From Halocaridina rubra (taxonomy: Eukaryota; Arthropoda; Malacostraca; Decapoda; Atyidae): 64,000 bases of DNA. A program made the translations under genes and the position numbers. The stretch is taken from NCBI GenBank assembly GCA_037179515.1, contig JAXCGZ010007632.1, forward strand, positions 92,660 to 156,659. Reading direction: 5' to 3'. Positions 3,754 through 42,121 of the stretch are shown one piece after another. Position 1 is the stretch's first letter, and every line of letters starts with the position of its first letter. The notes beneath the pieces are model-generated. The model ran no database searches. It saw only the letters and a list, made by a program, of their open reading frames with translations, and was not told where the DNA came from.

Positions 3754-4695
3754 TGTGACAGAGTGTTTCGCTCAAAGTCACCAGAGGCTGTTAGATGCCT
3801 TATTAAGTAATTTAGTAACTTAGCTGTCATTTTTCTAACTAAAAAAATAATTCCCACTTCTTGACTTTTGCAGATTATGATAATTTGCAATTTATATTTT
3901 AGCTTATAGCTAATTTTAAATATACTTTATTTACTCTTCTTGTACGTGTAAAGTATAGTCCCGATATAAAGGCTGCTCCTATTGTCCGTCTGCTACGAGC
4001 CAAGAACATTCTGGAGATTGTTTACCAGTAACCTAACTTTTCATTATTATTCTCGTTTTATTTTATTTGCTTCCACTTGTTGCACCTAAAAATACTGTCT
4101 CTCCCTTGCATCTCTGCTATAATTGCCTGCCAGGGACCACCACTAAAATAGTCCTTAAATGATATCAGAGCCAGTTACTGCTCTAGAAATGTATCCTACA
4201 GATGAACTCACCAGGAGGGACAATGAGACGTCCTCTTTTGGCGCCCAAACTTCCATGAGGCAACATCTCGCCTGAGCAGTCTAAGTTTATTTCAAACCTT
4301 ATTTACGTGGCATCTTCACAGGAATTCATCTGGCACAACAAGTGTCCTGTATTCTACTCTGCCTGTGTGACAGAGGTAATCATCGAGTTGAGGCCAAAGT
4401 CTTGGTATACGTCCGTGGTGCCGGGAAACGAAATCGTGCTCACCACTTCCGGGATTCGAGGCAGCATTTCATAAAATTTAATTAGAAAATTCAATTCTTT
4501 TAATGTCATTGCATTTTCAAAATTAAAAGAAAGTTGAATTCTGAGTTTCATTTAACCGACTAATGGTAAAAGAGATGGGGTGTTCAAGGACAAATATCTG
4601 TCCTGTCTGTTTGTGAGCTCTTAACCGAGCTCGGTACTTTGAGTCCCCTTAGTAAAACAGAATCTTAACAACACTCAGCCATCCTAACCCCAACA
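3754..4695 (+). repeat. Solo LTR of the Gmr1-like family, intron-less form, TSD ATAAC
   Basis: 942-bp LTR starting TGTGACAGAG and ending CCCCAACA, flanked by a perfect 5-bp direct repeat ATAAC (3749-3753 and 4696-4700). It lies inside the pol region of copy 1 in the opposite orientation. Its ends and body match the 5' LTR at 40286-42470, but it lacks one internal block: it joins CACAACAAG (ending 4342) directly to TGTCCTG (starting 4343). In the 5' LTR these two points are separated by 1,023 bp bounded by a GT donor and an AG-type acceptor. It therefore looks like an LTR made from spliced RNA that later lost its interior by LTR-LTR recombination. The terminal 130 bp belong to a subfamily different from copy 2 (CCCCAACA versus CACTCCACA). 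Confidence 0.93.
3965..3970 (+). promoter_or_regulatory. TATA box of the solo LTR
   Basis: TATAAA 211 bp into the LTR. The same box sits at about the same offset in the other three LTRs (40495, 52781, 62900), in a conserved context (CC[AG]ATATAAA). The spacing predicts transcription start near 3995, which places the putative intron in the transcribed R/U5 part. Confidence 0.6.
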
Positions 4696-5086
4696 ATAAC
4701 CCAATCAATGCCACTGCTGGGGCTTTCCTTTGTAGTATTTGCAGTCCAGGTCAATGACACAGCAGCATCGTATTTGAGGTGTTCCTTCAGCAACACCCAC
4801 ACGAACAACTCTTTCTAGCCTTGTTTCTATGGCATGGGCCGAGTGAGTGGCCAGACGGTTATGCGTGCCGTCACTGTGAGAGGGAATGTGGTGTCTCTTA
4901 GAGTTTGGCGTGATAACCCTGGAAAGGTGGAGCAGGGTAATTGCCCTTGCCTCTTAATTGCTGAGGCTTAGGTCTTACCGAGTCGTCCTTCTTGAGTGAT
5001 TACCTAATTGTGATTACCTAATTGTGCTTACGGGAAAGAGCCCAAAGCTCGTATCTTCCCGTCTCCTGATCGGTTCCATTTTAGAC

Positions 5087-7909
5087 TTAGTGATACTTAT
5101 CGTACCTGTCCTTAAAACTATGGATTGAGATAGCATTAACTACCTCCTCGCTTAGCGAATTCCAATTATCAACTACTCTTACACTGAAAAAGTATTTCCT
5201 TACATCCTGCAAAGAAGTTTTCTTACGAAGCTTCAAACTATGACCTCTAGTTCTAGAGCCAGCCATATCGAAATATCGATCCCTATCCACTCTATCATAA
5301 CCATGAAGGAATTTAAAGACTGTCACCATATCCCCCCTTACTCTTCTAGCTTCGAGTGATGGCAAGTCTAATTCCCTCAGCCTCTCATCATAACCGAGAT
5401 TGCGTATTTCTGGCACCAGTTTCGTGGCATGTCTTTGAACTTTTTCAAGCTTAGCTATGTGCTTTTTCAAGTGCGGATTCCAAAAGGGGGCTGCATATTC
5501 GAGTTTTGGCCTCACATAGGTTACATAAATATTTCTGAACATTTCCTTGTCCATGTGCCTGAAGGCTACCCTTACATTTGATAAGAATGCATATGCTGCC
5601 CTTACTACGCCATTTATATGTATTTCTGGAGACAAATCTGCCAGTATGTTTACTCCCAGATCTCTCTCATTTTCTGTCTCTTGAAGTTGTACTCCAGCCA
5701 CCGAGTAGTCAAGCTTGGGCCTTCTTGCACTTGTACCCATTCTCATTACCTTACATTTTGAGGTATTGAATTTCATTAGCCACTTTTCTGACCACTCATG
5801 CAGATTATTTAGATCCTCCTGAAGTTCTCTACCATTGTTCTCGTTTTTTACTTTCTTCACAATCTTTGCATCATCTGCAAACATATTCATGAATGAATTT
5901 ACAGACTCTGGTAGGTCATTTACATATACAAGGAACAAAAGTGGCCCTAAAACTGAACCCTGTGGAACTCCACTACTAACTCTTCTCCATTCAGACACTG
6001 AGTGTCTTACTCTAACCCTCTGTTCCCTTCCTTCTAAGTAAGTTTTTATCCATTCCAAGACATTTCCACCTATTCTAGCCATTGATTGCAGCTTCCTAAT
6101 AAGTCTCCCATGTGGAACAGTGTCAAACGCTTTCTGGAAGTCTAGGAATATGCAATCTGCCCAGCCCTCTCTTTCCTGTAAGATATGGCTTACCTCATCA
6201 TAAAATTCTAATAAGTTTGTTACTGTTGATCTACCTTCTCTGAAGCCATGTTGCCTCACTGACAAAAAGTTGAAGGATTCCAAGTGAAGAGAGATATGTT
6301 TCCTTAGTAGTTTCTCCATAACTTTGCAAACTATGCTGGTCAAGGAAACTGGTCTATAGTTCAGAGCCGTATCCCTCCTTCCCTTTTTGAAGATAGGTAT
6401 CACATTTGCTTGTTTCCAGCATCTTGGAATCTCCCCCGACTCCAGTGACTCCTTAAATATGATACTTAGTGCCACTGATATTGTGTTTGCGCATTTTTTA
6501 AGCACACGAGGGGATATGTCATCAGGACCTGTAGCTTTATGAACATCTAAATCCATCAGCGCTTTGCATACCTCTGTGGCTGTAAGGTTGATGTTCTCTA
6601 ATACCGGCCCTTGAGCTTCTATCACTGCAATCTGAGGGGGTGGGGTATTTTCTACTGTAAATACTGACTGAAACTCCTTGTTCAATTCTTTGCAGATCTC
6701 TTCGTCCGTCTCAGTGATGCTTCCATCCGCTCTCTTTAGCCTTAAAACCTGTTCTTTTACCTTCAGTTTTCCTCTGATAAAGCTGTGGAAAAGCTTGGGA
6801 TTTTCTTTAGCCTTCCTGGTGATGTCCCTCTCATAATCTCTCTCTGCCTCTCTCCTTTTACTTAGGTAGTCATTTCTTGCTCTTTTGTAGGTTTGCCAGG
6901 CATTTATGTTTTTTCTCCTCCTATACCTTTTCCAGCATTTGTCTCTCCACTCCTTAGCTCTTTTACACCCATTATCGAACCATTTCTCTCTGGCATGAAT
7001 TACACCTACTTTGGTGACAGGTATGCAGCAATCTACTATCTTCCCATATTTCTCACAAAAGATGTCATACATTTCTTGTACAGATTTGTTGTAAAATAAG
7101 GTTCTCCAGTCAATAACTGCAAAAAGCTCATTCATTTTGATGTAATCTCCTTTCCGATAGTTCCTCCTCATGTCCTCAGTGCCTCTACTCTCAGGAAGAA
7201 TATCTTCAATGATATACTCCATCAACAACACACAGTGGTCACTCTTTCCAATTGGTGGTTCATACTCAATATTTTCAATATCCAACACATTATCTGTGAA
7301 CACTAGATCAAGTAGTGATGGCTCATCCCCACCCCTGGCTCTTGTTGGTTCCATTACATGTTGGTGTAGGAAATTCCCTTGTACGCAATCTAGGAATCTT
7401 GCCCCAAATGAGTCCTCACCACTGTGTGGGTCAAGATTTATCCAATCTATCTCTTTATGATTAAAGTCTCCCATAATCAAAATCCTACATTTTTTCTCCC
7501 GTGCCATGTTAACAACTGAGTTTATGACTTCAATAGTACCTATATGACTTTCCTCATAAATTTCAAGCCTATTTTGGTTCCTTGGTGGGTTGTATACAAC
7601 AGTTATTATAATGCTCTCTGACCCAGTATTTATGCGAGCAACAAGAAATTCCCTGAACTCACTTTCTATAGCCAAGTTTATTTCTTCAACTTGAATCCTC
7701 TCACTTATGAGCAGTGCTATCCCTCCACCAGTCCTCTCACATCTTTCAACCCTTAGTATTCTGAAGCCCTTAGGAAAAACTGTGACACTGTTTATGTCCT
7801 CATTCAACTTAGTCTCTGTATTTGCTACTATATCTGCCTTACTGTTGTGAATCCTATCTTTTAATTCTACTGCCTTACCAGCTAATCCATCAGCATTTGT
7901 GTATAACAA
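5087..7909 (-). CDS. LINE ORF2 protein: AP endonuclease and reverse transcriptase, intact
   Basis: 940 codons without a stop. It encodes the enzyme that nicks target DNA and copies the element RNA into it (target-primed reverse transcription in the nucleus). The N-terminal endonuclease (about residues 1-230) shows YTNADGL, the glutamate in NTETKL, MGDFNHKEIDW and the terminal SDHCVLL. The RT (about 430-720) shows HKATGPDDISP, FLDFQKAFDTVPHG, SSGVPQGSVLGPLLF and the catalytic box FADDAKIV. The C-terminal part ends in WNSLSEEVVNAISIHSFK, typical of CR1/L2-like LINEs. The codon at 7909 is TTG, and the frame stays open a little upstream, so translation probably begins further up or by coupling to ORF1. 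All catalytic residues are present. It differs from the 58028-60076 copy at about eight residues over 682. Confidence 0.92.
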   Translation of the reverse strand: MLYTNADGLAGKAVELKDRIHNSKADIVANTETKLNEDINSVTVFPKGFRILRVERCERTGGGIALLISERIQVEEINLAIESEFREFLVARINTGSESIIITVVYNPPRNQNRLEIYEESHIGTIEVINSVVNMAREKKCRILIMGDFNHKEIDWINLDPHSGEDSFGARFLDCVQGNFLHQHVMEPTRARGGDEPSLLDLVFTDNVLDIENIEYEPPIGKSDHCVLLMEYIIEDILPESRGTEDMRRNYRKGDYIKMNELFAVIDWRTLFYNKSVQEMYDIFCEKYGKIVDCCIPVTKVGVIHAREKWFDNGCKRAKEWRDKCWKRYRRRKNINAWQTYKRARNDYLSKRREAERDYERDITRKAKENPKLFHSFIRGKLKVKEQVLRLKRADGSITETDEEICKELNKEFQSVFTVENTPPPQIAVIEAQGPVLENINLTATEVCKALMDLDVHKATGPDDISPRVLKKCANTISVALSIIFKESLESGEIPRCWKQANVIPIFKKGRRDTALNYRPVSLTSIVCKVMEKLLRKHISLHLESFNFLSVRQHGFREGRSTVTNLLEFYDEVSHILQEREGWADCIFLDFQKAFDTVPHGRLIRKLQSMARIGGNVLEWIKTYLEGREQRVRVRHSVSEWRRVSSGVPQGSVLGPLLFLVYVNDLPESVNSFMNMFADDAKIVKKVKNENNGRELQEDLNNLHEWSEKWLMKFNTSKCKVMRMGTSARRPKLDYSVAGVQLQETENERDLGVNILADLSPEIHINGVVRAAYAFLSNVRVAFRHMDKEMFRNIYVTYVRPKLEYAAPFWNPHLKKHIAKLEKVQRHATKLVPEIRNLGYDERLRELDLPSLEARRVRGDMVTVFKFLHGYDRVDRDRYFDMAGSRTRGHSLKLRKKTSLQDVRKYFFSVRVVDNWNSLSEEVVNAISIHSFKDRYDKYH

Positions 7910-7911
7910 TC

Positions 7912-8097
7912 TTAATGAGGCCCCATCCCCTGATCTTCTGTCATTATCTTCTTTATCTCCCCTTTGTCTGGAAGTATTCTGTAACGAAAATTTTTCTTCT
8001 CTTCTTCATTTCTTTCATCATTTAACCTTCTTGCCTCTTGGAACAAGTTTTTGATCTTTCCCATCTCTTCCTGTGTTCTGTATCGTCTAATGAACAC
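7912..8097 (-). CDS. LINE ORF1, C-terminal fragment
   Basis: A 62-codon charged stretch directly upstream of ORF2 in another frame, rich in Lys, Glu and Arg (DERNEEEKKNFRYRIL), ending GMGPH. Position and composition suggest the C-terminus of the LINE ORF1 RNA-binding protein, cut by 5' truncation near 8138. Its stop overlaps the open frame of ORF2. No conserved domain was identified, so the assignment rests on context. Confidence 0.5.
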   Translation of the reverse strand: MFIRRYRTQEEMGKIKNLFQEARRLNDERNEEEKKNFRYRILPDKGEIKKIMTEDQGMGPH

Positions 8098-9477
8098 TTC
8101 TTTGCATTATTGAAGGTCTTTTAGACTTTTTAGACTTTGAGGGTGCATGGATGTAATAAGGCTTAAGAAAGTGCGGAGGATGAGCTGAACGATCGAAGTT
8201 CTGAGAAGGGCCCTTGTGTTTCCCATTCCTGCGATCTCCTTTCCGGTGAGAACCATGGCCTGCTGCGGGGCTACAGGGGAGATGACACTCTGAGGATGGG
8301 CCTTGGGATCAGCCCTTCTTGCCCTCATCAAGTCGCAGACATGTATTCCAGGCTGGTTGTGCTGGAGGTACTCATCCACAGTGGCTAAACCTTTTTCGAA
8401 GTTGATCTCATCCTTAAACTGAGTCCTTACATATGCAGCAACATCTATAGGGAGGTCATTGGCAAATGAATCAAGCATCAAGAATGCATACCACTTCTCA
8501 GGAGGACGCCTTGCAACTCGCAGCCAATCATTAAATAGGTGAGCCTTCCGTTTGCCAAAGGTACTACAGTTTTCCTCCTTCAATGGGATAGCTATGACAT
8601 AAATAGTACGACACTCAGCTGGTAAAAAGTTCTGCGAGGCAATGCGTGTACTTTTAACTTTTTTGTAGTCCCTCAATTGCCTGTGGTCGAGTTCACTGAC
8701 CAGGGCGAGCAGACAGGGTGGCATGGAGGCGAGCAGCCAACAACTCTTCTCAGCCTCTGTGCCTTCGCTAGCTATCGCAAGACTTTCCAATGAACGGATG
8801 TAAGTATCTAGCAGTTGCTTGCCATCGTCCTCGTATTTCCATATGGGGGGCCTCTAACGAGTCTGGTCCCCACTTCTGGGTGAAGGACCACTGTCTGGGG
8901 TTCCCACTCAAAGCCTAGCAAGCACAGGCTCATGTTCACGTTGTGCTTGTGCCTGCGCCTTGTCGTTATCATGTTGTGCTTGCTCACTTTCTCATTTCAC
9001 TCGTGCCTGCTCCTGCTCACATGCTTTCCTCTCCAGATCAGCTCGGCATTTAGCCATCTTGTTATGAGCCCACTCAAAGAGCGTCGGTCCTGGGGAATTG
9101 CCGTATTTATCAGCCATAGCAATCGTCTTGTCTAGGTAACTAACATGGTTTACATGTTAGTTCCCTGTGACTGCCCAGTTGCCTTGGTGGTTTCCTAAAC
9201 AGTCAATAATGAAGCACCAAAACATACAACCACAAAAAAAACAAATCTCTACAATAGTCAAAAAATATGAAAGAACCACACAACACCAAGGAGAGAAAAA
9301 AAAATTCAACACCACAGTTCAAACTTAAACGTGGCCATGATCCCAAAACCGCACCATGAAAGTGACTCAAAATACAATCTAGGGCAACAGCAGAAAAGTG
9401 TTGCAAAACAATACATGAGACACTGGTAATACAGGATGTTAGTTGTGCCTGCTTAACAGCAATATACTTTTTTTACC

Positions 9478-9640
9478 CTAGGTAAGTATATTCTTTTCAA
9501 TCTGTAGAGAAATTTTCTTATGAAACTTCAAACTATGACCTCGTGTTATAGAGCCAACCATACCGGAGTATTGCTCCCTATCAACTTGGTAATAATCATG
9601 AAAAAAATTTAAAATTATCTGCCAAGAGGAGAGTTCTTAA
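9478..9640 (-). mobile_element. Degraded LINE 3' end in duplicon A
   Basis: Weak but clear match to the 3' coding end of the CR1-type family: TTCAAACTATGACCTCGTGT followed by AGAGCCAACCAT parallels 5227-5270. The same decayed piece sits in duplicon B (37640-37940), so it was present before the duplication. Too damaged to encode anything. From 9640 to 10620 no gene is visible; this is AT-rich 3' flank of the zinc-finger gene. Confidence 0.6.
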
Positions 9641-10633
9641 GCTAAATGTGGCTCAGGTATATCATACACGCATATTTCAAAAAACATCTCTGCTCAAGCG
9701 AATACACTTTCTTCTTTTCTCTCATCACAGTCAAATATGCATTAACAACCATAACTAAGATTATTTCAAAAATAAATCAACTTAACGCTAATTATTCCTT
9801 GAAATAATATTGCAGTTATGAACATTTGTTCAACATAATATTAAGAAAACCATAGCTTCATATAAAGTTTAAATAAAAAAAAAGGTAATGGTCATTTTAT
9901 AAGACAGGATTCATTAAACAAATCTCCTATTAAAATATTATAACGAGGATATTTTGTGACAAGAATATTACTCTGTAAAACAAATTTTGTCCTTTAATAG
10001 TTAATTTAAACTAATCAATTCGTAGTAAGTTGGTACATGACACCAGCTGCCCAAATGCAATACTACAGTTGAAGGTTTTTTTTTTTGTTGGACTTAAATG
10101 GGACTGTCTAGGAAAGTTTGATATTAAGTCTTCCTTCAGTTACAGTTCTTTTTCTATGCTTACATCAACACTGAATATTCTTTGATATTCCTTACACATC
10201 TCTTCACATCTGACAAGTCACAAAACTCTCCATCTCTGTTTCTCTTTACTTTGTTTTCTTTGTCCCCAAGCCCGATAAGGGAAGATTTATTTCATTTCTT
10301 TGCACGTCCTTGTGCTACACTCATAAAAAAATAATATGTATCTGGTGTGTTCTATATCCAGTCCCTAAATTATACAACTGCTGATGTCTTTAGGAACAAA
10401 TATCTGATAAGAAAAAAAATAGTTAGTGAAATGAAATCCAGCTCACCCAGTCAGTTTGGAAATATTGTATACAGTCATATCTCAGCACTATTTTTGCTTC
10501 ATTTAAGAAAGAGAATATCATTTAGCCACATTCATGCAAAAATAATTGATGAATATGAAATGAGACTAAAATTATACAAATAACACTACCAAGCAATTAT
10601 TCCATATTTTATCTTCAAGTGAATAATTACTAA

Positions 10634-10793
10634 TGTTGTATATTATATATGCTGTATTATTATGTTTTGTATGTTATTATTAGACGTTAAGGTAATTGTT
10701 ATTTCTATTGCTTGCAGATTGTTAATTATGGTGTGATTTTGTTGTAGACTAAAGCCATTGTATTATGGTGAGACACTGTTTCATTTACAAGAA
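10634..10793 (+). repeat. 5' LTR of the conventional gypsy element
   Basis: About 160 bp beginning TGTTGTATATTATATATG. It matches 15349-15487 over most of its length. The 3' copy carries an AATAAA signal (GAATAAAGCC); here the equivalent reads ACTAAAGCC. The exact 3' border is uncertain by a few bases because both copies share CATTTACAAGAA. Confidence 0.7.
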
Positions 10794-10824
10794 TTTATTC
10801 TACAACAATTATAAAAGATCATCT

Positions 10825-11610
10825 CCTGCATCCAGATAAGCTCAACATTGATCCTAGAGCACCAGATGCTGAGAAGGAATACAAGCACTGGAAAAAAAAT
10901 TTGTCAACTTCATTGAGGAGTGTTGAGCCAATACACCTAACAAACTGTGCTGTCTAACGAAATATGAGTCTGCTTCCGAGTACAAACATATTGTTGATCA
11001 TGTAACTTTCAATGCAGCTATTGGAATCCTGGATAAACCTATTTATAAAAAGAGAAAAATTTTATTTTTACATGTCATCTGTTGGTCACAAGACAACAAC
11101 AGCAGATGGAGAACATCAACGAATTCTTACAACAACTACATAAGCTGAGCAAGAACTGCCAATTTACAGCTGTTACTGCTGAGCAGTACCGTGAGGACCT
11201 GGTTTGAGATGCCTTCATATATGGTCTCCAATCTGGCATGATTCGTCAGCAGTTACTTGAAAACCAGGAACTAAGTTTGAGCCAGGCCTATGAGACTGCA
11301 AGGGCACTTGAGCTCGCTCAGCATAATTCTGAACAGTATGCTCAAGCTGCAGCCACCCAAGTTGTTGCTGCTTTACCTGCTGATGATTTGCCTGCAATGA
11401 AATCTGACAACTGCCGCTTTGTAAACAACACTGTTGGCTCTTCACATACAGAATCAGTTAATGCTGCTACCACAAAGAAAAAATGTTGGTTATGAGAGCG
11501 AATTCTGCATCTTTGGTCTAAATGTTCTGCTCAAACCAGTAAGTGTACATCCTGTGGCAAGACAGGTCACTGGGCTAAGGAATGTCAGTCAAAGCATAAG
11601 TGGAAAATTG
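10825..11610 (+). pseudogene. gag remnant with CCHC zinc knuckle (gypsy)
   Basis: Structural gag protein of the gypsy element, in several frames. An early part reads PDAEKEYKHWKKNF, the tryptophan-containing start of many gypsy gags. A later open stretch (11238-11495, 85 codons) has RQQLLENQELSLSQAYETAR. At 11521-11596 a nucleic-acid-binding knuckle of CX2CX4HX4C type is readable (CTSCGKTGHWAKEC). Stops at several points, for example in 11200-11210, break the frame. Confidence 0.75.
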
Positions 11611-11633
11611 TAGCTTCAACTGGCCATGGAGAG

Positions 11634-12047
11634 TTGTGTGCAATTTCTGCTGCTGCACCTGACTGCTTATCAATTTCTACAGCTCCTATATTGATTAATA
11701 ACTATAATGCAACAGCACTGATTGACTCAGCCAGTTCAGATGGCTTTATTGATTACAAATTAGCATGGAGACTGAAGTTGCATATCAAGCCCAGTTCCCA
11801 AAGTATCACCTTAGCAATGGCATCTAAACGTGCTCCAGTCAGAGGTGTCTGTCACGCAGATTTAATTATAAATGACAAGCATTATAAAAGAACTCACCTA
11901 GAGGCAATCGAAGATCTGTGTGGTGATATCATTTTGGACTTGGATTTACAAAAACATAGCATGCTGCTCTTACTATCCTGTATAGTGGGCCAAAACCTAA
12001 TCGACGAATTAATGACCCATAAGCCTATATTTGTAGCTTGGCTGTAG
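11634..12047 (+). pseudogene. Aspartic protease of the conventional gypsy element
   Basis: 137 open codons. The retropepsin-like active site appears as ALIDSASSDGFID (the family norm has a glycine after the Ser or Thr), followed by a substrate-flap-like region and a conserved GDIILDLDLQKH segment near the C-terminus. It lies between the gag knuckle and RT, as expected for the standard gypsy order. The frame ends in a stop before RT, so no gag-pol fusion is possible. Confidence 0.72.
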
Positions 12048-12059
12048 CAAATCTCTCCA

Positions 12060-12700
12060 AACCACGTCTATTTGCTAATATGAAGGCAAATGTTAAGCCA
12101 ATTGTGACTAAATATCGCGAATACAGTGCTACTAAGCAGCAGTTTATAGCTCAAGAAGTTAAGGAATAGTTAGCAGAAGGTATTATTGAGCCTAGCTTGT
12201 GTCCTTGGTGAGCTTAGGTAGTAGTTGTGAAAGATGAACTTGATCGCCGTAAGAAACATATGTGTGTAGACTACTGCAATACTGTAAATTTGCATACTGA
12301 CCTTGATGCATACCATTTGCCCAAGATCGAATCTCTAGTTAATAAATTAGCGTAATACAGAATCTTCTCAGCAGTTTGCTTGAAAAGTGTGTATTATCAG
12401 GTGCCTTTATGCGAGGATGACAAACCGTACACAGCTTTTGAGGCTAATGGAAGCCTATTTCAATTCACAAATGTGCCCTTTGTTGTAACTAATGGTGTGG
12501 CGGTTTTGCAGCGTGCTATAGACATATTTGTTGATGAGGAGAACCTCCAAAATACATTTCCATACCTGGATAATATTACTGTTGCAGGGAGAGACCAAGC
12601 TGAACATGATGAATGTGTGAAAAGACATTTAGCTGCTACTAAGAGAATATGTCTTACTCTAAATTAATCAAAATCTATACTGTCAGTTAGTAATATTTCT
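12060..12700 (+). pseudogene. Reverse transcriptase of the conventional gypsy element
   Basis: Readable RT with internal stops at about 12168, 12210 and 12353. Motifs: EGIIEPSLCPW, then MCVDYCNTVNLHT, the palm segment FQFTNVPF, and the catalytic box FPYLDNITVAG, in which the second aspartate of YxDD has become Asn. The longest open piece is 12380-12667. Not functional. Confidence 0.8.
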
Positions 12701-12727
12701 GTTCTTGGTTACGAAATCAGTGATGGG

Positions 12728-16080: not shown

Positions 16081-17283
16081 CTAATTACTTTTCCATTTTT
16101 ACAAGATGAAGATCTAACTTTATTGGTTCATGAATAAGGTGCTTATAGGTGTTCCTCCCTTTGGTGTCATCAACTCTTTTCAAAACATGTACTTGATCAT
16201 TCCTTTCATCTAGTTCATCATCAGGTAAAATTTCTTCTTCTTTATTGCTAAAACGCTCGTCTTTGACCTCAGTCTTAAGTAAAGAAACTGTCGTATCATC
16301 TTTCTCCTGATTGCTACTGAAGAGATCTGAGAAAGTTTCAGGATCATGTTTAAGAGCTTGGACACATAGTGTGCTAGTTTTTTCACTTTATACTACTGAT
16401 TTAATAGTATCTGATGGTTCATCAATTTTCGAACACTTATCATATTCTGCACTGATACCAAGAGCGTTATCATTTCCTGAGGATGTAATGTCATGCAAAT
16501 TCAAATTAATCTGAGGATCAATTCTTTTGCCTTCAGTATGTATTTTCAGGTGCCCGTTCCAGTTATCAGACTTACTGAATTTTTTCCAACACATACTACA
16601 TGAGTAATGTTTTTCTTCCGTATGCATTCTCGTGTGTGTATTAAGAGTAGATTTTCCGCAGAAGCTCTTTCCACAGATACTACACAGTCTTTCATGAGAA
16701 TGTATTCTCATATGTTCTGTTAGAATACCTATCCAACTAAAACTCTTCCCGCAATCAGTATAATTATAAGGTTTTTCAAGTGTGTGTGTCTTCAAAAGCT
16801 TACTAAGGCAATCTTTTCGAGCAAACCCTTAACAACAATTATTGCATTTGAAGGGTCTTTCTTTTGTGTGTACAGTCATATATATAGTGGCATGCCCTGA
16901 TTTTGTAAAGCCCCTGTTGCATATAGTACACATACATGGATTTTCTTTGGTATGAACCCTCATATGTGAGGTAAGATTGCTCTTGTAACTAAAACCTTTT
17001 CCACATTCAGAACATTCAAATGGCTGCTCTTTAGTATGAATCCTCATGTGTGTGATAAGACAGCTTTTTACACTAAAAGCCTTTCCACATTCAGAACACA
17101 AAAATGGCTTCACTTTGGTATGAACACTGATATGTGTGATAAGACGGCTCTTGTCACTAAAACTCTTTCCACATTCAGAACACACAAATAGCTGTTCTTT
17201 GGTATGAACCCTCATATGTCGGATGAGACTACCCTTTGCACTAAAAATCTTTTTGCATATGCTGCATATGAATAGTTTTCTTG

Positions 17284-19002
17284 TGATTACCTAATTGTGT
17301 TTACGGGAAAGAGCCCAAAGCTCGTATCTTCCCGTCTCCTGATCGGTTCCATTTTAGACTTAGTGATACTTATCATACCTGTCCTTAAAACTATGGATTG
17401 AGATAGCATTAACTACCTCCTCGCTTAGCCAATTCCAATTATCAACTACTCTTACACTGAAAAAGTATTTCCTTACATCCTGCAAAGAAGTTTTCTTACC
17501 AAGCTTCAAACTGTGACCTCTAGTTCTAGAGCCAGCCATATCGAAATATCGATCCCTATCCACTCTATCATAACCATGAAGGAATTTAAAGACTGTCACC
17601 ATATCCCCCCTTACTCTTCTAGCTTCGAGTGATGGTAAGTCTAATTCCCTCAGCCTCTCATCATAACCGAGATTGCGTATTTCTGGTACCAGTTTCGTGG
17701 CATGTCTTTGAACTTTTTCAAGCTTAGCTATGTGCTTTTTCAAGTGCGGATTCCAAAAGGGGGCTGCATATTCGAGTTTTGGCCTCACATAGGTTACATA
17801 AATATTTCTGAACATTTCCTTGTCCATGTGCCTGAAGGCTACCCTTACATTTGATAAGAATTCATATGCTGCCCTTACTATGCCATTTATATGTATTTCT
17901 GGAGACAAATCTGCCAGTATGTTTACTCCTAGGTCTCTCTCATTTTCTGTCTCTTGAAGTTGTACTCCAGCCACCGAGTAGTCAAGCTTGGGCCTTCTTG
18001 CACTTGTACCCATTCTCATTACCTTACATTTTGAGGTATTGAATTTCATTAGCCACTTTTCTGACCACTCATGCAGATTATTTAGTTCCTCCTGAAGTTC
18101 TCTACTATTGTTCTCGTTTTTTACTTTCTTCACAATCTTTGCATCATCTGCAAACATATTCATGAATGAATTTACAGACTCTGGTAGGTCATTTACATAT
18201 ACAAGGAACAAAAGTGGCCCTAAAACTGAACCCTATGGAACTCCACTACTAACTCTTCTCCATTCAGACACTGAGTGTCTTACTCTAACCCTCTGTTCCC
18301 TTCCTTCTAAGTAAGTTTTTATCCATTCCAAAACATTTCCACCTATTCTAGCCATTGAGTGCAGCTTCCTAATAAGTCTCCCATGTGGAACAGTGTCAAA
18401 CGCTTTCTGGAAGTCTAGGAATATGCAATCTGCCCAGCCCTCTCTTTCCTGTAAGATTTGGTTTACCTCATCATAAAATTCTAATAAGTTTGTTACTGTT
18501 GATCTACCTTCTCTGAAGCCATGTTGCCTCACTGACAAAAAGTTGAAGGATTCCAAGTGAAGAGAGATATGTTTCCTTAGTAGTTTCTCCATAACTTTGC
18601 AAACTATGCTGGTCAAGGAAACTGGTCTATAGTTCAGAGCCGTATCCCTCCTTCCCTTTTTGAAGATAGGTATCACATTTGCTTGTTTCCAGCATCTTGG
18701 AATCTCCCCCGACTCCAGTGACTCCTTAAATATGATACTTAGTGCCACTGATATTGTGCTTGCGCATTTTTTAAGCACACGAGGGGATATGTCATCAGGA
18801 CCTGTAGCTTTATGAACATCTAAATCCATCAGCGCTTTGCATACCTCTGTGGCTGTAAGGTTGATGTTCTCTAATACCGGCCCTTGAGCTTCTATCACTT
18901 CAATCTGAGGGGGTGGGGTATTTTCTACTGTAAATACTGACTGAAACTCCTTGTTCAATTCTTTGCAGATCTCTTCATCCGTCTCAGTGATGCTTCCATC
19001 CG
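17284..19002 (-). mobile_element. CR1-type LINE, family L, copy 2 (5'-truncated)
   Basis: Same family as 4997-8138, inserted in the zinc-finger pseudogene. ORF2 is open at 17360-18211 and 18233-18958 in one frame. The only break is a TAG that replaces the glutamine codon of the conserved GVPQGS motif (18233-18235). The 5' end stops at about residue 430 of ORF2 (near 19002). The tail unit CAATTAGGTAAT is at the 17284 end. TGTG flanks both ends (17282-17285, 19003-19006). Confidence 0.92.
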
Positions 19003-19004
19003 TG

Positions 19005-20060
19005 TGATTACCTAATTGTGATTACCTAATTGTGTTTACGGGAAAGAGCCCAAAGCTCGTATCTTCCCGTCTCCTGATCGGTTCCATTTTATACTTAGTG
19101 ATACTCATCATACCTGTCCTTAAAACTATGGATTGAGATAGCATTAACTACCTCCTCGCTTAGCAAATTCCAATTATCAACTACTCTTACACTGAAAAAG
19201 TATTTTCTTACATCCTGCAAAGAAGTTTTCTTACGAAGCTTCAAACTATGACCTCTAGTTCTAGAGCCAGCCATATCAAAATATCGATCCCTATCCACTC
19301 TATCATAACCATGAAGGAATTTAAAGACTGTCACCATATCCCCCCTTACTCTTCTAGCTTCGAGTGATGGTAAGTCTAATTCACTCAGCCTCTCATCATA
19401 ACTGAGATTGCGTATTTCTGGCACCAGTTTCGTGGCATGTCTTTGAACTTTTTCAAGCTTAGCTATGTGCTTTTTCAAGTGCGGATTCCAGAAGGGGGCT
19501 GCATATTCGAGTTTTGGCCTCACATAGGTTACATAAATATTTCTGAACATTTCCTTGTCCATGTGCCTGAAGGCTACCCTTACATTTGATAAGAATGCAT
19601 ATGCTGCCCTTACTATGCCATTTATATGTATTTCTGGAGACAAATCTGCCAGTATGTTTACTCCTAGATCTCTCTCATTTTCTGTCTCTTGAAGTTGTAA
19701 TCCAGCCACCGAGTAGTCAAGCTTGGGCCTTCTTGCACTTGTACCCATTCTCATTACCTTACATTTTGAAGTATTGAATTTCATTAGCCACTTTTCTGAC
19801 CACTCATGCAGATTATTTAGATCCTCCTGAAGTTCTATACCATTGTTCTCGTGTTTTACTTTCTTCACAATCTTTGCATCATCTGCAAACATATTCATGA
19901 ATGAATTTACAGACTCTGGTAGGTCATTTACATATACAAGGAACAAAAGTGGCCCTAAAACTGAACCCTGTGGAACTCCACTACTAACTCTTCTCCATTC
20001 AGACACTGAGTGTCTTACTCTAACCCTCTGTTCCCTTCCTTCTAAGTAAGTTTTTATCCG
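19005..20060 (-). mobile_element. CR1-type LINE, family L, copy 3 (5'-truncated)
   Basis: Second head-to-tail insertion at the same site, ending in two tail units (19005-19034). Its RT C-terminal half is open. The 326-codon frame 19095-20075 begins in zinc-finger sequence (MRVHTR) and runs straight into the LINE at IKTYLEGREQ, a chance chimera. The 5' junction has TATCCG, and copy 2 has CATCCG at its own 5' junction, followed each time by TGTG, so both truncations ended on the same short motif. Confidence 0.92.
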
Positions 20061-33493: not shown

Positions 33494-34315
33494 TTGCACC
33501 TCCACCTTTTAAATCTTCATGTCACCCAATCATGGGATCCTTCACCGGAATGCCCAGGGTTCGAGACAAAATTCCAACACTTGGAAGGCATTGCCAGGGC
33601 TGACAATATCGATGTCATCATGGTTCAAGAAACTTTGTGTATGGATCAAAATACTCCTAAAGTCTCTGGATACCAGGGATTCTACCAGCACTGGACTTGG
33701 GAGAGAATAGAGGAAGTGCCACCTTTATCAGGAAAAACTTACTGGCCAAAGAAATCACCCTACCTGCCTTTTCTGGTGAGGGTGTCCATGTCCATGCTGT
33801 CATCATTATACTACAGGGCAGCTGCATAGATCTTTTCAACATAGGAGGCGATTTTGATACGCACCATCTAAGAGTCAGGTATGAGCACCCCTGTGCAGCA
33901 GGCAGACACATTATGAGTCTGCTGGACGACCAAGAAGACATCACCATGCTCAACAACCACGAGCCAACTCATGACAGGTGGGATACTTGATTTCACCTTT
34001 GTCTTTAACTCCCTAAAACAAGACGCCACTGGGAGAGTTCACCCTCTGGTCATGAGTGACCACTACGGGATCCACCTCCTGCTGCCAATTCCTGAAATCT
34101 TCCAAATCCCTGCTCCTCCTCCTCAATGGTATTTCAAGAGGGCCGACTGGGGCCGATTCCAGGAGCACCTCAGCAATTGGTTCTCAGCTTATACACCACC
34201 TGGAGATATAGATCAAGCTGAGGCTGAGCTAGTTAATGCCTTGCAAGCCTCAGCTGACTCCTCTATCTCCCTTTACAAATCACATCACACTAATCATCAT
34301 GATAGAGTCAAATAA
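33494..34315 (+). pseudogene. I-type LINE endonuclease
   Basis: AP-type endonuclease in at least three frames. Visible motifs: NIDVIMVQETLCMDQNTP (active glutamate), then GEGVHVHAVII, then a possible SDHYGIHLLLP (catalytic His) at about 34050. The usual GDFN box is changed (IGGDFDTHH). A charged linker follows. Confidence 0.7.
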
Positions 34316-34483
34316 CTTAATCACCACAGGCTCAACATTGTCCAAAAAAAGCACAGGAACTGTCACACTGAAGGCTCCTACCATACTCTCCAGGTAATCA
34401 AAGAACATGTCCATGAAGAGACACAAGAAATAAAGAGGAATGAATGGCTTGAGTGGTGTTCCACGATAGATGCTCACACCTCT

Positions 34484-35667
34484 GTGGGCCAAATGTGGAG
34501 GACTATCAACTCTTTTGCCAAAGGAAGACCTTCTATTACCATCATCCATAGGGACCCCAGCTGGGTAGCTGAAGAACTCTCCACCAAATTCACGGAGAGG
34601 GCTAACTCCGACCAGTTCCCCATTGCAACCAGAACAACTCCTCAGGGTCTCACCACTGCAAGATGGGATGAAGTAGAAGAGACCATCAACACTGAAGATC
34701 AAGCAGATGCCCCTTCACTCTGACTGAGCTGTAGAAAGTGAGCAAGAGCTCCAAGAACACAGCCCCAGGTGTGGACAGAATCACATACTCGATGATTCAC
34801 AATATGGGGCCCCAGGGGGAGCTTGCTCTACTCTCTCTGATTAACAAGACATATACTCTGAGAGTGAGACCAGCTTCATGGAACAGGGCAGATATTCATC
34901 CCATTCCTAAGCCAGAGGATCCTGATAACCCACGCCTATCTCCCTCTTAAGTGCCTGAGCAAGACGGCAAAAAGATGGTGCTTAACAGACTTTGTTGTAA
35001 GTACCTACCCATCCACGAAAATATGTTCACCTATCAGCCAGGCCTAGGCACCTCAGAATGCATAGCTTCCATGCTATCATTCATCAATGATCGTCATGGA
35101 TTCATTGTTTTTCTTGATCTAGAAAAGGCCTTTGAACATGCCAATGTACCGGCAATATTCTCTGCCCTGGTCACTAAGCAGATCAAAGGAAATATTCTCT
35201 CCTGGATCAAGCTGAGTCTACAAAACTATAGTGCTCGAGTCAAAGTTCAAGGGAATTATTCCACCTATAAAGTCCATGAAAATGGAACCCCGCAAGGTGG
35301 AATTCTCAGCCCCTTCCTCTTCATTTGTTTCATGAAGAAAATCATGGACATTGTACTACCACTTGGAGATGAGATCTTCAGTTATGCTGACAACTTTGCC
35401 CTCATCACAAGAGGCAACAGGAATTTAAACAAGACCCAGCGCTTCCTCACCAAGATTTACAAAGCCTCCATCTTCCTCAGACTAAAGATAAATGCCCTCA
35501 AAACCAAGGCGCTCCCCATCTGCCAATGGAGACCAGACACTAGATTGGTCATAGGCAATGAGCCTGTGAACTGGGTTAACAAGCACGTCTACCTGGGTGC
35601 ATTCAATGATAGCCGACTAACCTTCGGACCTGAGATACAACACTTGCCTGACAAATGTAAACTATGA
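34484..35667 (+). pseudogene. I-type LINE reverse transcriptase
   Basis: RT in three frame blocks (34484-34723, 34738-34950, 34951-35667). Motifs: KSSKNTAPGVDRITYSMI, WNRADIHPIPKPEDP, FIVFLDLEKAFEHANVP, GTPQGGILSPFLFI and the catalytic box YADNFALI, where the second aspartate has become Asn. The relative at 13847-14149 keeps YADD. Confidence 0.82.
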
Positions 35668-36059
35668 CAGATGGGCTTTTTCAACAATGCATCCTTCAAT
35701 CTCCTTTGAACCTTCTATGTGTAATCCATACAAAGCCTCATAGACTATGAATGTCTCACTCTCTGGCTAATGGAAGACCAACAAAGGGACAAGATAGAGT
35801 ATATACAAAATAATGTCATGTGGACCATGCTTGGAGCCCCAATGTGGACCAAGAGAGAATACCTCCAGCTGGAATCCAACCTCATGCCACTTAAACTTGG
35901 ATCTCTACAAAGATTAACCCTCTAAGTGGCCAAAACCACCACGGATCAATGTCCCTGCCTAGTCGGCTCCGACTTCCGGCTAGCCTTCGATCACCTCGGA
36001 CCTCCCTGCAAGAACCTGGGCAACCAAGGTCTGTGCCAGCTTGCAAGCATTACTAGTCC

Positions 36060-36766
36060 AGGTAGACATTCTAACCAATGACCGATGACTATATCCAATC
36101 CTGGAGGCTGTTGAACTCCTGCTCTTTGCTCCAAACTGGGCTGGGTGCCATAGCCAATGCCCTCAGTTTTTTTTCTCCCAGCAAGGAACTCCCCTAGCCC
36201 TTATTCTCTCCAACTCTAAAGGTGTCCTACAGGCCATCAAGAAGACACTTTTCAAAGATAATGTGAGAATTATTACTAGCATTCTTGACCTTTATCACAA
36301 GGCAGTCAGCATTGGAAAAGCCATCACTCTTGCTTGGATTCTCAGCCATGTCAGCATCAAGGGAAATGAAGAAACCAACCAAGCTGGCAAAGAGGCCTCT
36401 CTCCGAGGAGAGACTCAAATATCCCTGCCTCCTGGGACTTTCCAGATACAAAACAAAGCTTCCAGGTCACTCTTTAACCTACTACTAACCAGACACAACT
36501 TGTGCGCTGACATTGGTTCTCCCTTCACCTGGTGGAGCAAAGCAATCACCAATCTCCAGCGCAGCACCCTGCCCAAGAACCACCGCAAAAGCACAGCAGT
36601 CAACTTGCACCATCCGAGACTTGGTTATAAGTGCACCTGGCAAATAGTGGAAGATGTCGTTAGGGAGTGCACCTTCTGTCAGGAGCCTCGCCACATCCAC
36701 TGCTCCACTACATCCTCAAATGTGAAGTCTTTTCTGATATTCAATGGAAGATTAGTGCCTCAGTAA
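36060..36766 (+). pseudogene. I-type LINE RNase H end and Cys-rich C-terminus
   Basis: Open stretch 36263-36766. The RNase H C-terminal motif reads SHVSIKGNEETNQAGKEASL; the N-terminal TDGS segment is missing through deletion near 36060. A C-terminal Cys/His segment follows (RECTFCQEPRHIHC), similar to the CCHC end of I-type proteins. From 36770 to 37350 is 3' UTR. Confidence 0.78.
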
Positions 36767-37350
36767 CACCTAACATAGATCCCAACACCATTCATGTTGC
36801 TAGCTCCATAATCAGAATAGCAACAATGAACTCCATGAACAGCCTACTGAACATCATCAGGCGGTACCCTCCTCCTAGATAACAAGGCAACAAGTCATGC
36901 TCTTTGTCAAGACATAAACTCATGAGGTTTAAGACCTGTTCCTCAGTCTCTCCAGTATGAGTCCAACACACGCTGGTGTTGTTCCAAATGGAAGCCTTGT
37001 CCTTACTGGTCATCAACAAGACCCTTTCTTTTTTACTTTTCCGTATTTATGCTCATCCATTTTTTTTTCATTTTTATATATTCATGAATTTTTTTGTCTA
37101 GTTTCTCTTACTCTTTCTTCCTGGTGATCCTCTAGGGGTTAAAAGCGTGCATGCAGCGCCATCACCTCTCCCTTTTTCACCTCTATCTTATTTCAACTTT
37201 CCCTTTCCTCTCTACGAGGCACCTCAAAAATTGAAGGAGACTATTAATTCTGCTTCATATTGTCTTTACAGATGTATTCCAGATCCAGACGATCCCACCT
37301 GTGGGTCCACCAAGGCCCGGTAACCCCCAGGGGTGGATATCGATAATGGT

Positions 37351-37639
37351 AACGGGTCCCTCCTCCGACAGGAAACGAGGTCTGGTCAGGTTTCATTTCA
37401 GGTCCCTACTATTTTGTTCCTAGAGATGTGACGGTGATGATCACTGTACGATACTGATAATTTAATACACACAATTATATTGAGTACCATCATCTGATAT
37501 CATCCTTGGTGAAATAGGACTGATATGAATGGCAGAATATATGGAAAATGGAATTTACATGGTGAACTGAACAACAACATAGTCCTTTATAGTCAAGATA
37601 TGGTAAAAGTTGACTATCTATATATTCATAAAATTTTTC
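37351..37639. other. Unassigned sequence between I-type LINE and duplicon B
   Basis: About 290 bp of mixed composition without a gene or a recognised repeat. Confidence 0.4.
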
Positions 37640-37940
37640 TAATTGGACCAGAAGAAAAAGCACAATGCTCGTTTCTTCCTGTCTCCTTTTCTTTTCTTTT
37701 CTTTTTAATAATGAATTCTCCTCATATATTTCCTTACTACTTCAAATGCACTTAATATTTACTGCTTTTGGCTAAGCAAATTCCAATTATCAGCTATTTT
37801 TCCCCTAGATACATATATTCTTTGCAATCTGTGGAGAGGTTTCCTTATGATACTTAAAATTATGACCTCTAGTTCTAGTTCCACCCATATTACATTTTAT
37901 CAACTAGGTCAAAAGCATGGGGAAATGTAAAAACCTTTGC
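37640..37940 (-). mobile_element. Degraded LINE 3' end in duplicon B
   Basis: Old relative of family L: the 3' UTR reads GCTCGTTTCTTCCTGTCTCC where family L has GCTCGTATCTTCCCGTCTCC, and coding pieces TTCCAATTATCAGCTA and TATGACCTCTAGTTCTAGTT follow. Shared with 9478-9640 of duplicon A, so older than the duplication. Confidence 0.7.
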
Positions 37941-39058
37941 CAAGAGGAGAGTATCTAAACTAAAACTGGCTTAGGTATGTCATACAGCAGCATTTCAGAA
38001 AATTTTCGCTTATTGTAATGTAAAAAGTCTCCTCTTGTCTCATCACAGTCAAAACCGCAATAACAACCATCAATATAATTATTCTAAAAATAAATGAACT
38101 GAACACTAATTTTTCCTTCAACATAACAATAACGAACATATATTCAACACAACATTATGGAAATCATAGCTTCAAATAAAATCTAAAAAATTTTAGTGGT
38201 CATTTTATATGACAGGATCTATTAAACAAATATTAATAAAAATATAATTGCAGACAATTTCTCATAAGAAAATATATACTGTAAAACAATTTTTGTCCAA
38301 TAATAGATCATTTTCATTAACAAAATAATAAGTATTTGGTGTATCCATAATTAAGTCCCTAAATTACATCAGGAGATATCATTAGGAACAAATATCTAAT
38401 AAAAAAAAATAGTAATTGCAACGAAATCCAGCTCACCTAGTAAGTTTGAGAGAAAGAAATTTGCAGTCTTTCAAGTAGTAGTTCAAAGTCATATTTCAGC
38501 AATATTTTTACTTCATTTATGAAACAGACAATATATTTTAGTAATACTCAGGCAAACAAATTTGATGAATATAAAAAGAGAACAAAATTTTTATATGAAA
38601 CACTCAAGCTTTTTATTCCTTATTTTACCTTCAAGTGAATAATTAATATATATCAAAGCTAGGAGATCAGTACAATGTGAAGTGAAAGATTACAAATATT
38701 TTCAGTGACTATCTCATATATTTCATTACAATTATATTCCTATCCATTCAATACGTGCCACTGAACAATAACAATTATGCGATGTTAAAATCAAGTAAGA
38801 ATTTTATTGGTGTCAACTCATTGACGTAATAAACTGGCAATAAATATAAAACTGGCAATAACATAAACATTATTTTAATGGTTATGCTCTAAAGGTACTG
38901 TATGCAAAATGCAGTAAGAAGGTGTCATTACCCTTATCGAATCCTGAGCACGTGAGTACACCTAATATGATCCAACACACATGTAAAGATCTATGACACT
39001 GTACATTATCAAACTCAACATGTATACTGGTCATACATTATATCCGTCTATTTCAGGA

Positions 39059-40285
39059 TTAGACAATGCTCATTGCTAGTTGGATGGTGAGTAAAGACTT
39101 ACATAGTAATTGAATAAGCACTGTATACTCAGTTAGCTGAGATGACGTAAAGTAAGGCATGGCATTTATAACAAAATTAGCAAACAGTTGTCTCACAAAC
39201 CACCAAAAGAATCCCGGACAACCTTTATCTGAAAATTTTTCCATCTTGACAAGATAAAGATCTAACTTTATTGGTTCATGAATAAGGCATTTACAGGTGT
39301 TTCTCCCTTTGGTGTCATGAACACTGTTCAAGACATTTACTTGTTCATTTCTTTCATCTAATTCATCCTCAGGTAAAATTTCCTCTTTAATAATAAATAA
39401 TTCGTCTTCGACCAATGTCTCTAGAATAGAAACTGCTCCATTCTCTTTCTCCTTATTGCTACTAAAGAGATATAAAATTTTCAGAATCAAGTCTTTAAGC
39501 TTGGCACCTAGTTGCTAGTTTAATCACTTTCTACCACTGATTCAATAGTATCTCAAGGGTTCAGAATATTTTGAACACTAATGAATCAGGAGCTTCATCA
39601 TTTCCTGATGTAATGTCATGTGAATTCAAATTATACTATGGGGCAATTCATTTGCCTTCAGTATGTATTTTCTGGTGCTTGTTCCAGTTGAAGGATTGAC
39701 TAAGTTTTTTTCCAGCATATACTACATGAGTAAGGTTTATCTTCCGTATGCATTCTCATGTGCATATTAAGTGGATATTTTTGGCAGAAACTCTTTCCAC
39801 AAACACTGCTCGGGTATGGTCTTTCTTGAAAATGTATTCTCATATGGTCAGTTAGATTATCTTTCCAACTAAAACTCATTCCGCATTCGGTACTATTATA
39901 AAGTTTTTCAAGTGTTTGCATTCTCAAATGCTTGTAAATGCAATATTTCCAGGCAAATCCTAGCACATTCATTGCATTTGAAGGGTCTTTCAAGTGTGGC
40001 CCTTCTCAAATGCTTGCAAAGGCAATCATTACGTGCAAATCCTTGACTAAGTTCATTGCATTTGAAAGGTCACTCTTTTGTATGTTTCACCATATGGCTA
40101 GTGACATGCTCGGCTGAACAAAACCCCCGTCACATATAGTACACATAAATAGTATCTCTTCTGTATGAACCCTCATAAGTGAGGTAAGATTGCTCTTGTC
40201 ACTAAAACCCTTTCCACACTCAGTACATTCAATGGATGCTCCTTAGTATGAGTCATCATGTGTGTGATAAGACAGCTCTTTACAC
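39059..40285 (-). pseudogene. C2H2 zinc-finger gene, copy B, 3' part
   Basis: Minus-strand paralogue of 16080-17283, decayed. Fingers at 39700-40285 (for example MHMRMHTEDKPYSCSICWKK) have lost several Cys or His (Pro-Ser in place of a CxxC pair at about 39805) and contain frame breaks. The acidic tail is open at 39059-39490 for 143 codons (EEILPEDELDERNEQVNV) and lines up with the tail of copy A through LVKMEK; beyond this the two sequences diverge. The gene is cut at 40285 by the Gmr1-like insertion and continues at 54689. Confidence 0.8.
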
Positions 40286-40494
40286 TGTGACAAAGTATTT
40301 TGCTCAAAGTCACAAGAGGCTATAGTAGATGCCTTGTTAGTTAATTCAGTAACTATTAACTGTCTTTTTTTTTCTTACTAAAATCATTCTCACTCCTTGC
40401 CTTTTGCATATTATGATTATTTGCAATTAATATTTCAGCTTATAGCTAATTTTAAATATATCTTATTTAATACGTGTAGAAAGCATGATCCCAA

Positions 40495-40500
40495 TATAAA
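40495..40500 (+). promoter_or_regulatory. TATA box of 5' LTR
   Basis: TATAAA in the context GATCCCAATATAAAA, at offset 209 in the LTR, conserved in all four LTRs of the family in this window. Confidence 0.6.
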
Positions 40501-41098
40501 AATCTCCATCCTATTTCTCCACTTTCTGCCTTTTTTTTTCTAATGATTGGTACAATATTCCTAGGGAATCTGTTAGATACGTTTTTACACAATTTTCTTA
40601 TGATAAAATAGCTCTTGCTGCTAAATTCTTTATATAATAAAAATCGCTCTTCCTAATAATTTTGTTATAAATTTGACCCTGCTGATATGACATCAGCCTG
40701 TCTAGATACATTTCAGTAGCTTCTTTATTATTTGAATAGTTAAAATTCCGTCTCCTTTAATGCAAAGAACTTTCTAGGGATTGCTCGCCGGTAACCTATT
40801 TTGCCCATAAATTTTTTTTTTATTTGCTTTCACTTGTTGCACCTAAAATATTGTCTCTCCCTTGCATCTCTGCCATAATTGCCTTCCAGGGACCACCACA
40901 ACAGTAGCCCTCGAATATTATATGAACAAATTATTTCTATGGATATATATTCTGCAGATGACATCACCAGGAGGTACATTGAATCATCTTCATTTGGCGG
41001 CCAAACATCCCAGAGGCAAGATCTCTCCTCAGCAGTCAAACTTACTTCAAACCTTACTTACATGGCGTCTTCACAGGAATTCATCTGGCATTAACAAG

Positions 41099-42121
41099 GT
41101 GAGAGATAGTGTATGGTAAAGTTCGTTGGTCAAGCAAATTGGGAACTCGAGAAACTGGTTAAATTCGTTACAAGTCAAATCCTTTACTGGTCAAATCCTG
41201 CGAAAGTTTTCTCAGATTCCATCCCCATATAAAACGAACTTTTGTAGATTACCTAACTGGAATATCATTTGCCAAACTTAATTCCTTGACCTGGAAATTA
41301 CAGCCGATATACATTGATAAGAAGTTTCTTTCACTGAATGTGCCAAACAAAAATCTCATCCTCAGAAGACTGCTTATTACCGCGTAAATATCTATCCCTT
41401 TTCCCTAACGAATTCCAATTTAATTTCACCCACTTTCTATCATCGTAAATAAAGTATTTTACGTCAAAACTAGTAAATAAAGTGATTTACTATATAAATT
41501 GCAAATTATTAATCATTTAACTAAAATGTTTTATGATATAAACCGCAAATAATTAAAAAGTAATTATACCCTGTTGGCTTTGCAATTTTTTCTTGTTAAC
41601 CACAATTTAATGAATACATATTGTATTTATCATGCTGATTCTTCATATATTGGGGATAAAGTGTTTTGAGTTATAAGTTGCAAATACTTCAAAAGGTGGA
41701 TTTTCCCTTTTTGCATTGCAAATATTCCTTGCTAACCAAAGTTGAATGAATACTGCATTTATCTCGTAGATTCTCACTTTATTGTAAATAAAGTGTATTA
41801 CCATATAAATTGCAAATAATTAATAGGTAATTTTGCCCAATTGGCAGTGCAAACTTTTGTGTTTGCCTACAATTTAAGGAATATACTGCATTTGTCTTGC
41901 TTATTCTTCATTTATTGTGAATAAATTGTTTTCCTCTAATGCTGGCAAAATAATTAATGGTTTTATATGCTCTTACGGTAGCGTAAATATTTCTGGGCAG
42001 CTGTGACTAACCAATATATTTTCATCCAACAGATTTAATATTGGAAACTCATTATTTATGTGCTCATGCCTTCGGTTTTCCCATTATTAACGGTGTGTCA
42101 TTCCTGTTTCGGCAATTGCAT
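41099..42121 (+). other. Putative spliceosomal intron inside the LTR
   Basis: 1,023 bp bounded by AAG|GTGAGA and, in the 3' LTR, by a textbook acceptor TTTCTGTAATTGCAG|TG (54307-54323). Here the acceptor has decayed to GCAT. The solo LTR at 3754-4695 lacks precisely this segment. The interior is AT-rich with repeated GTAAATAAAGTG-like segments, which include several AATAAA motifs. It lies downstream of the TATA box, so in the leader of the genomic RNA. A 105-bp deletion removed the donor from the 3' LTR. Confidence 0.82.

Follow-up and report, generated by a model that had tools for sequence, protein, structure and literature searches.

In Ty1 and L1 indicator genes, the precise loss of an engineered intron reports passage through a spliced RNA. 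Spliced retroviral RNAs, such as the SD' RNA of murine leukaemia virus, are packaged and reverse transcribed into DNA, giving products that are missing coding regions and are defective. In foamy (spuma) retroviruses, the splice donor is joined to acceptors deeper in the genome to produce subgenomic mRNAs. According to the sections of PMC3694450 used here, this major donor is located in R, inside the LTR and upstream of the poly(A) signal, U1-based suppression of 5' LTR polyadenylation has been shown, and a spliced pol transcript is mentioned. Spliceosomal introns are present in the transcripts of two plant retrotransposons, Ogre (Gypsy; cited in PMC3735527) and BARE1 (Copia), the latter intron being 104 nt long and starting just past gag, with its removal blocking pol (PMC3735527, in the sections used here). 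In the same sections, the BARE authors hold that retrotransposons have to prevent the reverse transcription of their spliced RNA, and report that DNA copies of spliced RNA could not be amplified from barley (PMC3735527). In a light survey of the literature, we found no description of an intron that is contained entirely in an LTR and has been lost precisely and repeatedly.

In the retrotransposon family analysed here, LTRs occur in two states, with and without a block of 0.95–1.03 kb (GTGAG...AG) situated within the LTR, 3' of its TATA box. The window, i.e. the whole stretch of DNA that was analysed, comprises 64,000 nt of Halocaridina rubra (assembly GCA_037179515.1, contig JAXCGZ010007632.1, positions 92,660–156,659 of the forward strand).

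LTRs of the window and type of the element

Alignment and border inspection identified four LTRs of one family and one inverted fragment in the window (Table 1). An earlier note on this DNA had described a solo LTR with its two exon parts directly joined, the same parts 1,023 bp apart behind a donor in a 5' LTR, the exon 2 block of a 3' LTR with the sequence that precedes it, a further donor at the right edge, and a TATA box upstream of the donor; all of these were verified at their coordinates, with the addition of ATAAC duplications on both sides of the solo LTR and of a deletion that removed the donor of the 3' LTR. No window LTR was seen with donor and acceptor both intact; the acceptor of the 5' LTR is mutated (GCAT in place of GCAG), and the right-edge LTR, in which the end of exon 1 is tandemly duplicated ahead of the donor, stops short of the acceptor at the window end.

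Table 1. Positions of LTRs, their parts, target duplications and coding frames in the window
Feature	Position	Strand	Remarks
Target duplication ATAAC, 5 bp	3749-3753 (left), 4696-4700 (right)	+	Flanks the short solo LTR
Short solo LTR, TG...CA	3754-4695	+	Both 5-bp duplications present
Solo LTR, exon 1 part	3754-4342	+	U3, TATAAA (3965-3970), start of presumed transcribed leader
Solo LTR, exon 2 part	4343-4695	+	Abuts exon 1 at splice borders, CAACAAG/TGTCC (4342/4343)
Target duplication TACAC of full element	40281-40285 (left), 54684-54688 (right)	+	
5' LTR of full element	40286-42470	+	
5' LTR, exon 1	40286-41098	+	TATAAA (40495-40500), terminal AACAAG
5' LTR, intron, 1023 bp	41099-42121	+	Donor GTGAGA (41098/41099), branch-like motif TATTAAC, acceptor GCAT
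5' LTR, exon 2/U5	42122-42470	+	Begins TGTCC; end is CCACTCCACA, followed by primer-binding-like sequence
Frame with rve core domain	43965-46106	+	Domain search; integrase zinc-binding domain weak, below cut-off
Frame with reverse transcriptase	47304-47972	+	Domain search; 3' of integrase
3' LTR	about 52627-54683	+	Without its start; donor region deleted
3' LTR, acceptor TTGCAG and exon 2	54316-54321; exon 2 from 54322	+	Acceptor intact; TTTCTGTAATTGCAG directly before exon 2
Right-edge LTR	62656-64000	+	Exon 1, donor GTGAGG at 63293, 5' part of intron; interrupted by window end

The order of integrase before reverse transcriptase is the defining trait of the Gmr1-like group, and animals are known to carry Gmr1-type elements. 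Besides the window frames, H2C2 and rve domains followed by RVT_1 and RT_RNaseH were found both in a short-LTR element (L040) and in a long-LTR element (L041), each searched as two pieces. By this predicted gene order, the family is assigned to LTR retrotransposons of the Gmr1 type, with the integrase upstream of the reverse transcriptase. The integrase frame has four relatives in public data at 59–64% identity and a distant one at 26%, and no match was found among phage records. The LTRs end in TG...CA with 5-bp target duplications, as seen in the window element (TACAC), the solo LTR (ATAAC) and two long elements (CCTCT in C10124 and GGGGT in C13233).

LTRs of the family are also inserted into, or placed head-to-head with, one another (L032 at ~2268, L080 at ~2043, window 62655/62656, and L043/L044 in C19447); in L032 and L080 the insertion point is the terminal GTGAC of the target LTR, and self-targeting is possible. 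One locus (L087) that had been considered an aberrant reverse-transcription product is better read as an older short LTR with an intron-bearing one inside it, and the former interpretation was rejected. In the short LTR L107, a LINE starts (~308) directly after TGTCCTGT of exon 2, and the intron-bearing L010 (acceptor side) has the letters GATT at the matching point; a shared target site is possible. In the window, positions 16770–17266 represent a paralogous empty site matching the flanks of the element (39984–40286, 80%; 54684–54879, 87%), and positions 61726–62516 form a tandem array (period ~158 bp, ~95% identity) adjoining the inverted fragment of an LTR 3' part (62514–62655). Three repeat copies (4996–7139, 17281–20059, and 58024–60167) are 98–99% alike, and a frame with endonuclease and reverse transcriptase domains (5087–8005) points to a LINE family that was apparently active recently.

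Intron signals, precision of the junction and elements with two short LTRs

Among genome copies in which splice sites were located by similarity to the known site (some rows being overlapping fetches), GTGAG was present in 39 of 39 donors and AG in 31 of 32 acceptors. The GTGAG donor, a TATTAAC or TATAAAC branch-like motif ~30 nt upstream of the intron end, a pyrimidine tract, and TTGCAG are conserved across subfamilies whose introns are 15% apart. From its GT...AG borders, together with this extended donor, the branch-like motif and the pyrimidine tract, the block is predicted to be an ordinary spliceosomal intron. Its position is unchanged in the copies that have diverged most (subfamily A of the window and L032/L048, with the intron end visible in L066), and intron divergence broadly increases together with exon divergence; on these two grounds the intron is taken as ancestral. 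The AATAAA motifs conserved in the intron were considered as poly(A) sites and are not claimed as such, their density of 3–4 per kb being only somewhat above the estimated chance for AT-rich sequence.

The whole genome (1.18-Gb assembly in 21,031 contigs) was searched for exact matches. The 24-mer of the intron/exon-2 border occurred 2269 times, that of the spliced junction 224 times, and the exon-2-start 18-mer 2788 times, against 0 for the reversed-pattern control in every case, which excludes chance; these counts do not equal independent insertions, because the assembly seems to contain allelic copies at some loci. Among the first 100 listed of the 2788 exon-2 starts, 83 were preceded by the exact intron border and five by the exact spliced junction, and the remaining 12, when fetched, proved to be 11 intron-end variants and one point mutant of the spliced junction, giving 94 and six in total. 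No other upstream neighbour or breakpoint was present among these 100, as far as the 18-mer, which is blind to deletions entering exon 2, can show. A 181-bp query gave 40 scored matches from 650 candidates, and the gap between exons 1 and 2 was 0 in all 40 fetched copies, although the query spans the junction and so favours exactly joined copies. With a 301-bp query derived from an older short copy, 40 matches crossed the junction with no fewer than 298 of the 301 bases aligned, three loci being common to the two match sets. A narrow search for the spliced form of the exact exon 1 end of subfamily A (14 bases) gave 0 matches. The short forms break at the same two points and not at scattered positions, in agreement with the expectation of the earlier note: all 40 copies from the junction-spanning query are exact, and the first 100 listed exon-2 starts all conform.

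Full-length elements with two short LTRs, which the earlier note had suggested looking for, were also found. In 13 LTR pairs compared, eight were short/short, five intron/intron and none mixed, a sample biased toward agreement since it came from one-state queries; the partners of two single short LTRs, looked up without this bias, were both short, one carrying a LINE insertion in its exon 2. The two LTRs differ by 0.4–3.6% in the short/short pairs (n = 8), by 0–0.4% in four young intron/intron pairs, and by 10.4% in the damaged element of the window. Matching 5-bp target duplications flank five of the eight short/short elements (TCTTT, TTAGC, CTATG, GCCAT, and CCAAC in C19634, C19680, C8152, C1636, and C721, respectively); a sixth (C16255) has a duplication with one mismatch, and the other two were not assessable. 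C19680, with an LTR divergence of 0.4%, retains a 1368-aa stop-to-stop frame containing integrase, reverse transcriptase and RNase H. The LTR spacing is 7.0–8.4 kb in 19 short pairs among 100 spliced-junction places listed, and 7.8–8.7 kb in 15 intron-bearing pairs chosen by eye from 100 border places listed, the gap between the two ranges being about the intron length. Based on the target duplications, low LTR divergence, spacing, and the frame of C19680, the short/short elements are regarded as ordinary and recently integrated.

Recurrence of the short state and alternative origins

The earlier note had envisaged a single short-LTR lineage. This part of its reading is rejected by trees of both exons, according to which there were several origins of the short state, some of them within the young intron-bearing clade. 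In the both-exon tree of 72 rows (37 short), for which the bootstrap had not settled, six changes of state are needed, three of them forced by well-supported branches; one short clade is rejected on these data (p = 3.5e-5), as is the main short group alone (p = 2.5e-4). A single short clade is likewise rejected by exon 1 alone (2.5e-45) and by exon 2 alone (0.009, bootstrap of the exon-2-only tree not settled). The 75-row tree, with two more short copies added and its bootstrap also not settled, again needs six changes (AU p = 8e-5) and places the old copy L090 with subfamily A. In the 79-row tree (43 short), at least nine changes are required, seven of them forced by well-supported branches (AU p = 1.3e-37); nine is the minimum when regain is allowed, and with regain disallowed the count is 20 losses, or 12 once weak branches are merged. 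Some of these changes of state may not be fresh losses and may have come from exchange between short and long LTRs, either by recombination through template switching or by gene conversion. Copies for the trees came from several searches (30 of 40 matches fetched in one, L088 besides L080 of 40 in another, and only L032/L048 of 40 in a third); short copies that looked allelic or were partial (L003, L008, L049, and L067), sequences already contained in larger fetched loci, and intron-bearing loci without an exon (including L010, L011, L025, L027, and L035) were left out.

A marker adjoining the junction gave a further line of evidence. In the young intron-bearing clade, the donor is immediately preceded by a tandem duplication of 21 bp, GAATTCATCTAGCACAACAAG (L012:1600–1645; window ~63250–63292). 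Recurrent loss predicts spliced copies carrying this duplication, and the search then found them at 44 places with at most two mismatches (30 exact; control, 0), including 14 pairs 7.1–7.9 kb apart. Exon 2 starts with TGCCC at 11 of the 44 places, and this variant is also present in the intron-bearing L018 and L019. Four marked short copies that were fetched fall into three separate places in the marked clade of the 79-row tree, with placements that are not all strong (99/77 for L094; 87/87 for L091/L092 with L015). The duplication itself starts directly after an AG (CACAG/GAATTC) and could be a trans-splicing scar, a misaligned template-switch scar or the result of plain slippage.

Other comparisons were less decisive. 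Between the intron-bearing L088 and its short neighbours (S40), divergence in the two exon parts is 2.6% and 1.7%, about equal to the differences of those neighbours from each other (2.9% and 1.6%). Exon 1 of the young clade is unusually diverged, and the intron and exon distances there fit retention and regain alike. A U3 block of ~160–280 bp (window LTRs, ~40499–40770; L081), present in subfamily A and some old copies, absent from the main clade and found with both intron states, was dropped as an independent proof of recurrence, since intermolecular strand transfer can bring together a U3 and an R-U5 of different origin.

The most serious alternative supposes one ancient splicing-derived loss, after which template switching or LTR gene conversion carried one state or the other, short or intron-bearing, from sublineage to sublineage. 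It is compatible with the established knowledge that retroelement RNAs are co-packaged and that R-U5 is moved by strand transfer, and with the nesting of some intron-bearing clades in short ones in the 72-row tree. We nevertheless regard it as unlikely, in view of the rejection of one short clade by each exon side separately and the grouping of the old short copy L090 with subfamily A. Two markers also flank the junction closely, the 21-bp duplication reaching right up to it and the TGCCC variant following 3 bp behind it; as each is present in LTRs with and without the intron, exchange would require crossovers confined to a few bases on either side.

The block might instead have been gained by insertion into a short LTR, as in introners, the short form being ancestral. 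The AG common to the end of exon 1 and the end of the intron can be read as a 2-bp target duplication, whereas the unchanged position of the intron in copies that have diverged most, with a divergence that broadly follows that of the exons, and the rooting on the intron-bearing A group, which makes most short copies derived, speak against such a gain and render it very improbable. An inserted transposon or introner, which by the earlier note would have refuted the splicing reading if the block had transposon ends of its own, was also rejected on the block itself: in the one copy tested (L088), neither terminal inverted repeats (terminal 100 bp compared) nor a clear target duplication was found, only the 2-bp AG being shared. 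The same AG repeat provides the microhomology by which the junction is formally explicable as a DNA deletion of the block, through AG–AG pairing or unequal recombination. Such deletions would have had to recur at one spot, which is odd, with the same endpoints in 40 of 40 fetched short copies, in several lineages and in both LTRs of young elements, and with no other upstream neighbour among the first 100 listed exon-2 starts; we consider this origin hardly credible.

Proposed replication route and comparison with known systems

The best reading, which we hold with high confidence, is recurrent reverse transcription of genomic RNA predicted to be spliced inside its own leader. The earlier note had proposed such reverse transcription of spliced genomic RNA, and its proposal is supported by the exact junctions and the short/short elements, except for the single lineage that it derived from them. 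The family would be an active LTR retrotransposon of Gmr1 order with a spliceosomal intron wholly inside the LTR; located downstream of the TATA box, the intron should lie in the 5' leader of the transcript, whose start we infer from this arrangement. Most copied genomic RNA would be unspliced, as about nine-tenths of the copies retain the intron. Occasionally, the leader would be spliced ahead of reverse transcription, and the spliced RNA would still be a complete genome because splicing spares the primer-binding site and gag-pol. In established retroviral replication, strong-stop DNA is the source of R-U5 in both LTRs. Minus-strand strong-stop DNA made from the spliced leader would thus supply R-U5 of both new LTRs, a strand-transfer route that predicts elements with two short LTRs, as observed. 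The loss would have occurred several times, and some short elements would then have multiplied further.

We give an even chance to a broader view, in which the family has two replication-competent genome forms, spliced and unspliced, and can lose the intron in any cycle without loss of function, yet keeps it in ~90% of copies and in the youngest dated elements. Selection would then probably maintain the intron because it serves the intron-bearing RNA, for instance by suppressing polyadenylation in the 5' LTR, in nuclear export or in the choice of RNA for packaging, and its loss would provide a natural record, kept over a long time, of how frequently genomic RNA is spliced ahead of reverse transcription. 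By analogy with foamy viruses, U1-based suppression of 5' LTR polyadenylation is one candidate reason for the survival of the intron; the AATAAA motifs of the intron are compatible with it and are not evidence for it. The thousands of natural copies make it possible to measure how frequently splicing precedes reverse transcription, which template each LTR was made from, and what an apparently dispensable intron is worth. As a caution, LTRs that differ in length within one family should not automatically be taken for separate subfamilies.

Compared with the systems described above, the present family shares with foamy viruses a splice donor inside the LTR, as far as the sections of PMC3694450 used here describe it, but the acceptor implied by its short copies is in the same LTR, so that the spliced RNA would be the whole genome. 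As in BARE1 and Ogre, an LTR retrotransposon carries what is, by its sequence signals, a spliceosomal intron; unlike in BARE1, spliced DNA copies are abundant (PMC3735527, sections used here). Against the rule given by the BARE authors in those sections, spliced genomes seem to be copied repeatedly, because the intron is sited where its removal costs nothing essential. In contrast to the SD' products of murine leukaemia virus, the short copies keep all coding regions. Finally, whereas the intron of Ty1 and L1 indicators is engineered, that of the present family is natural and situated in its own LTR, with its losses recorded over a long time.
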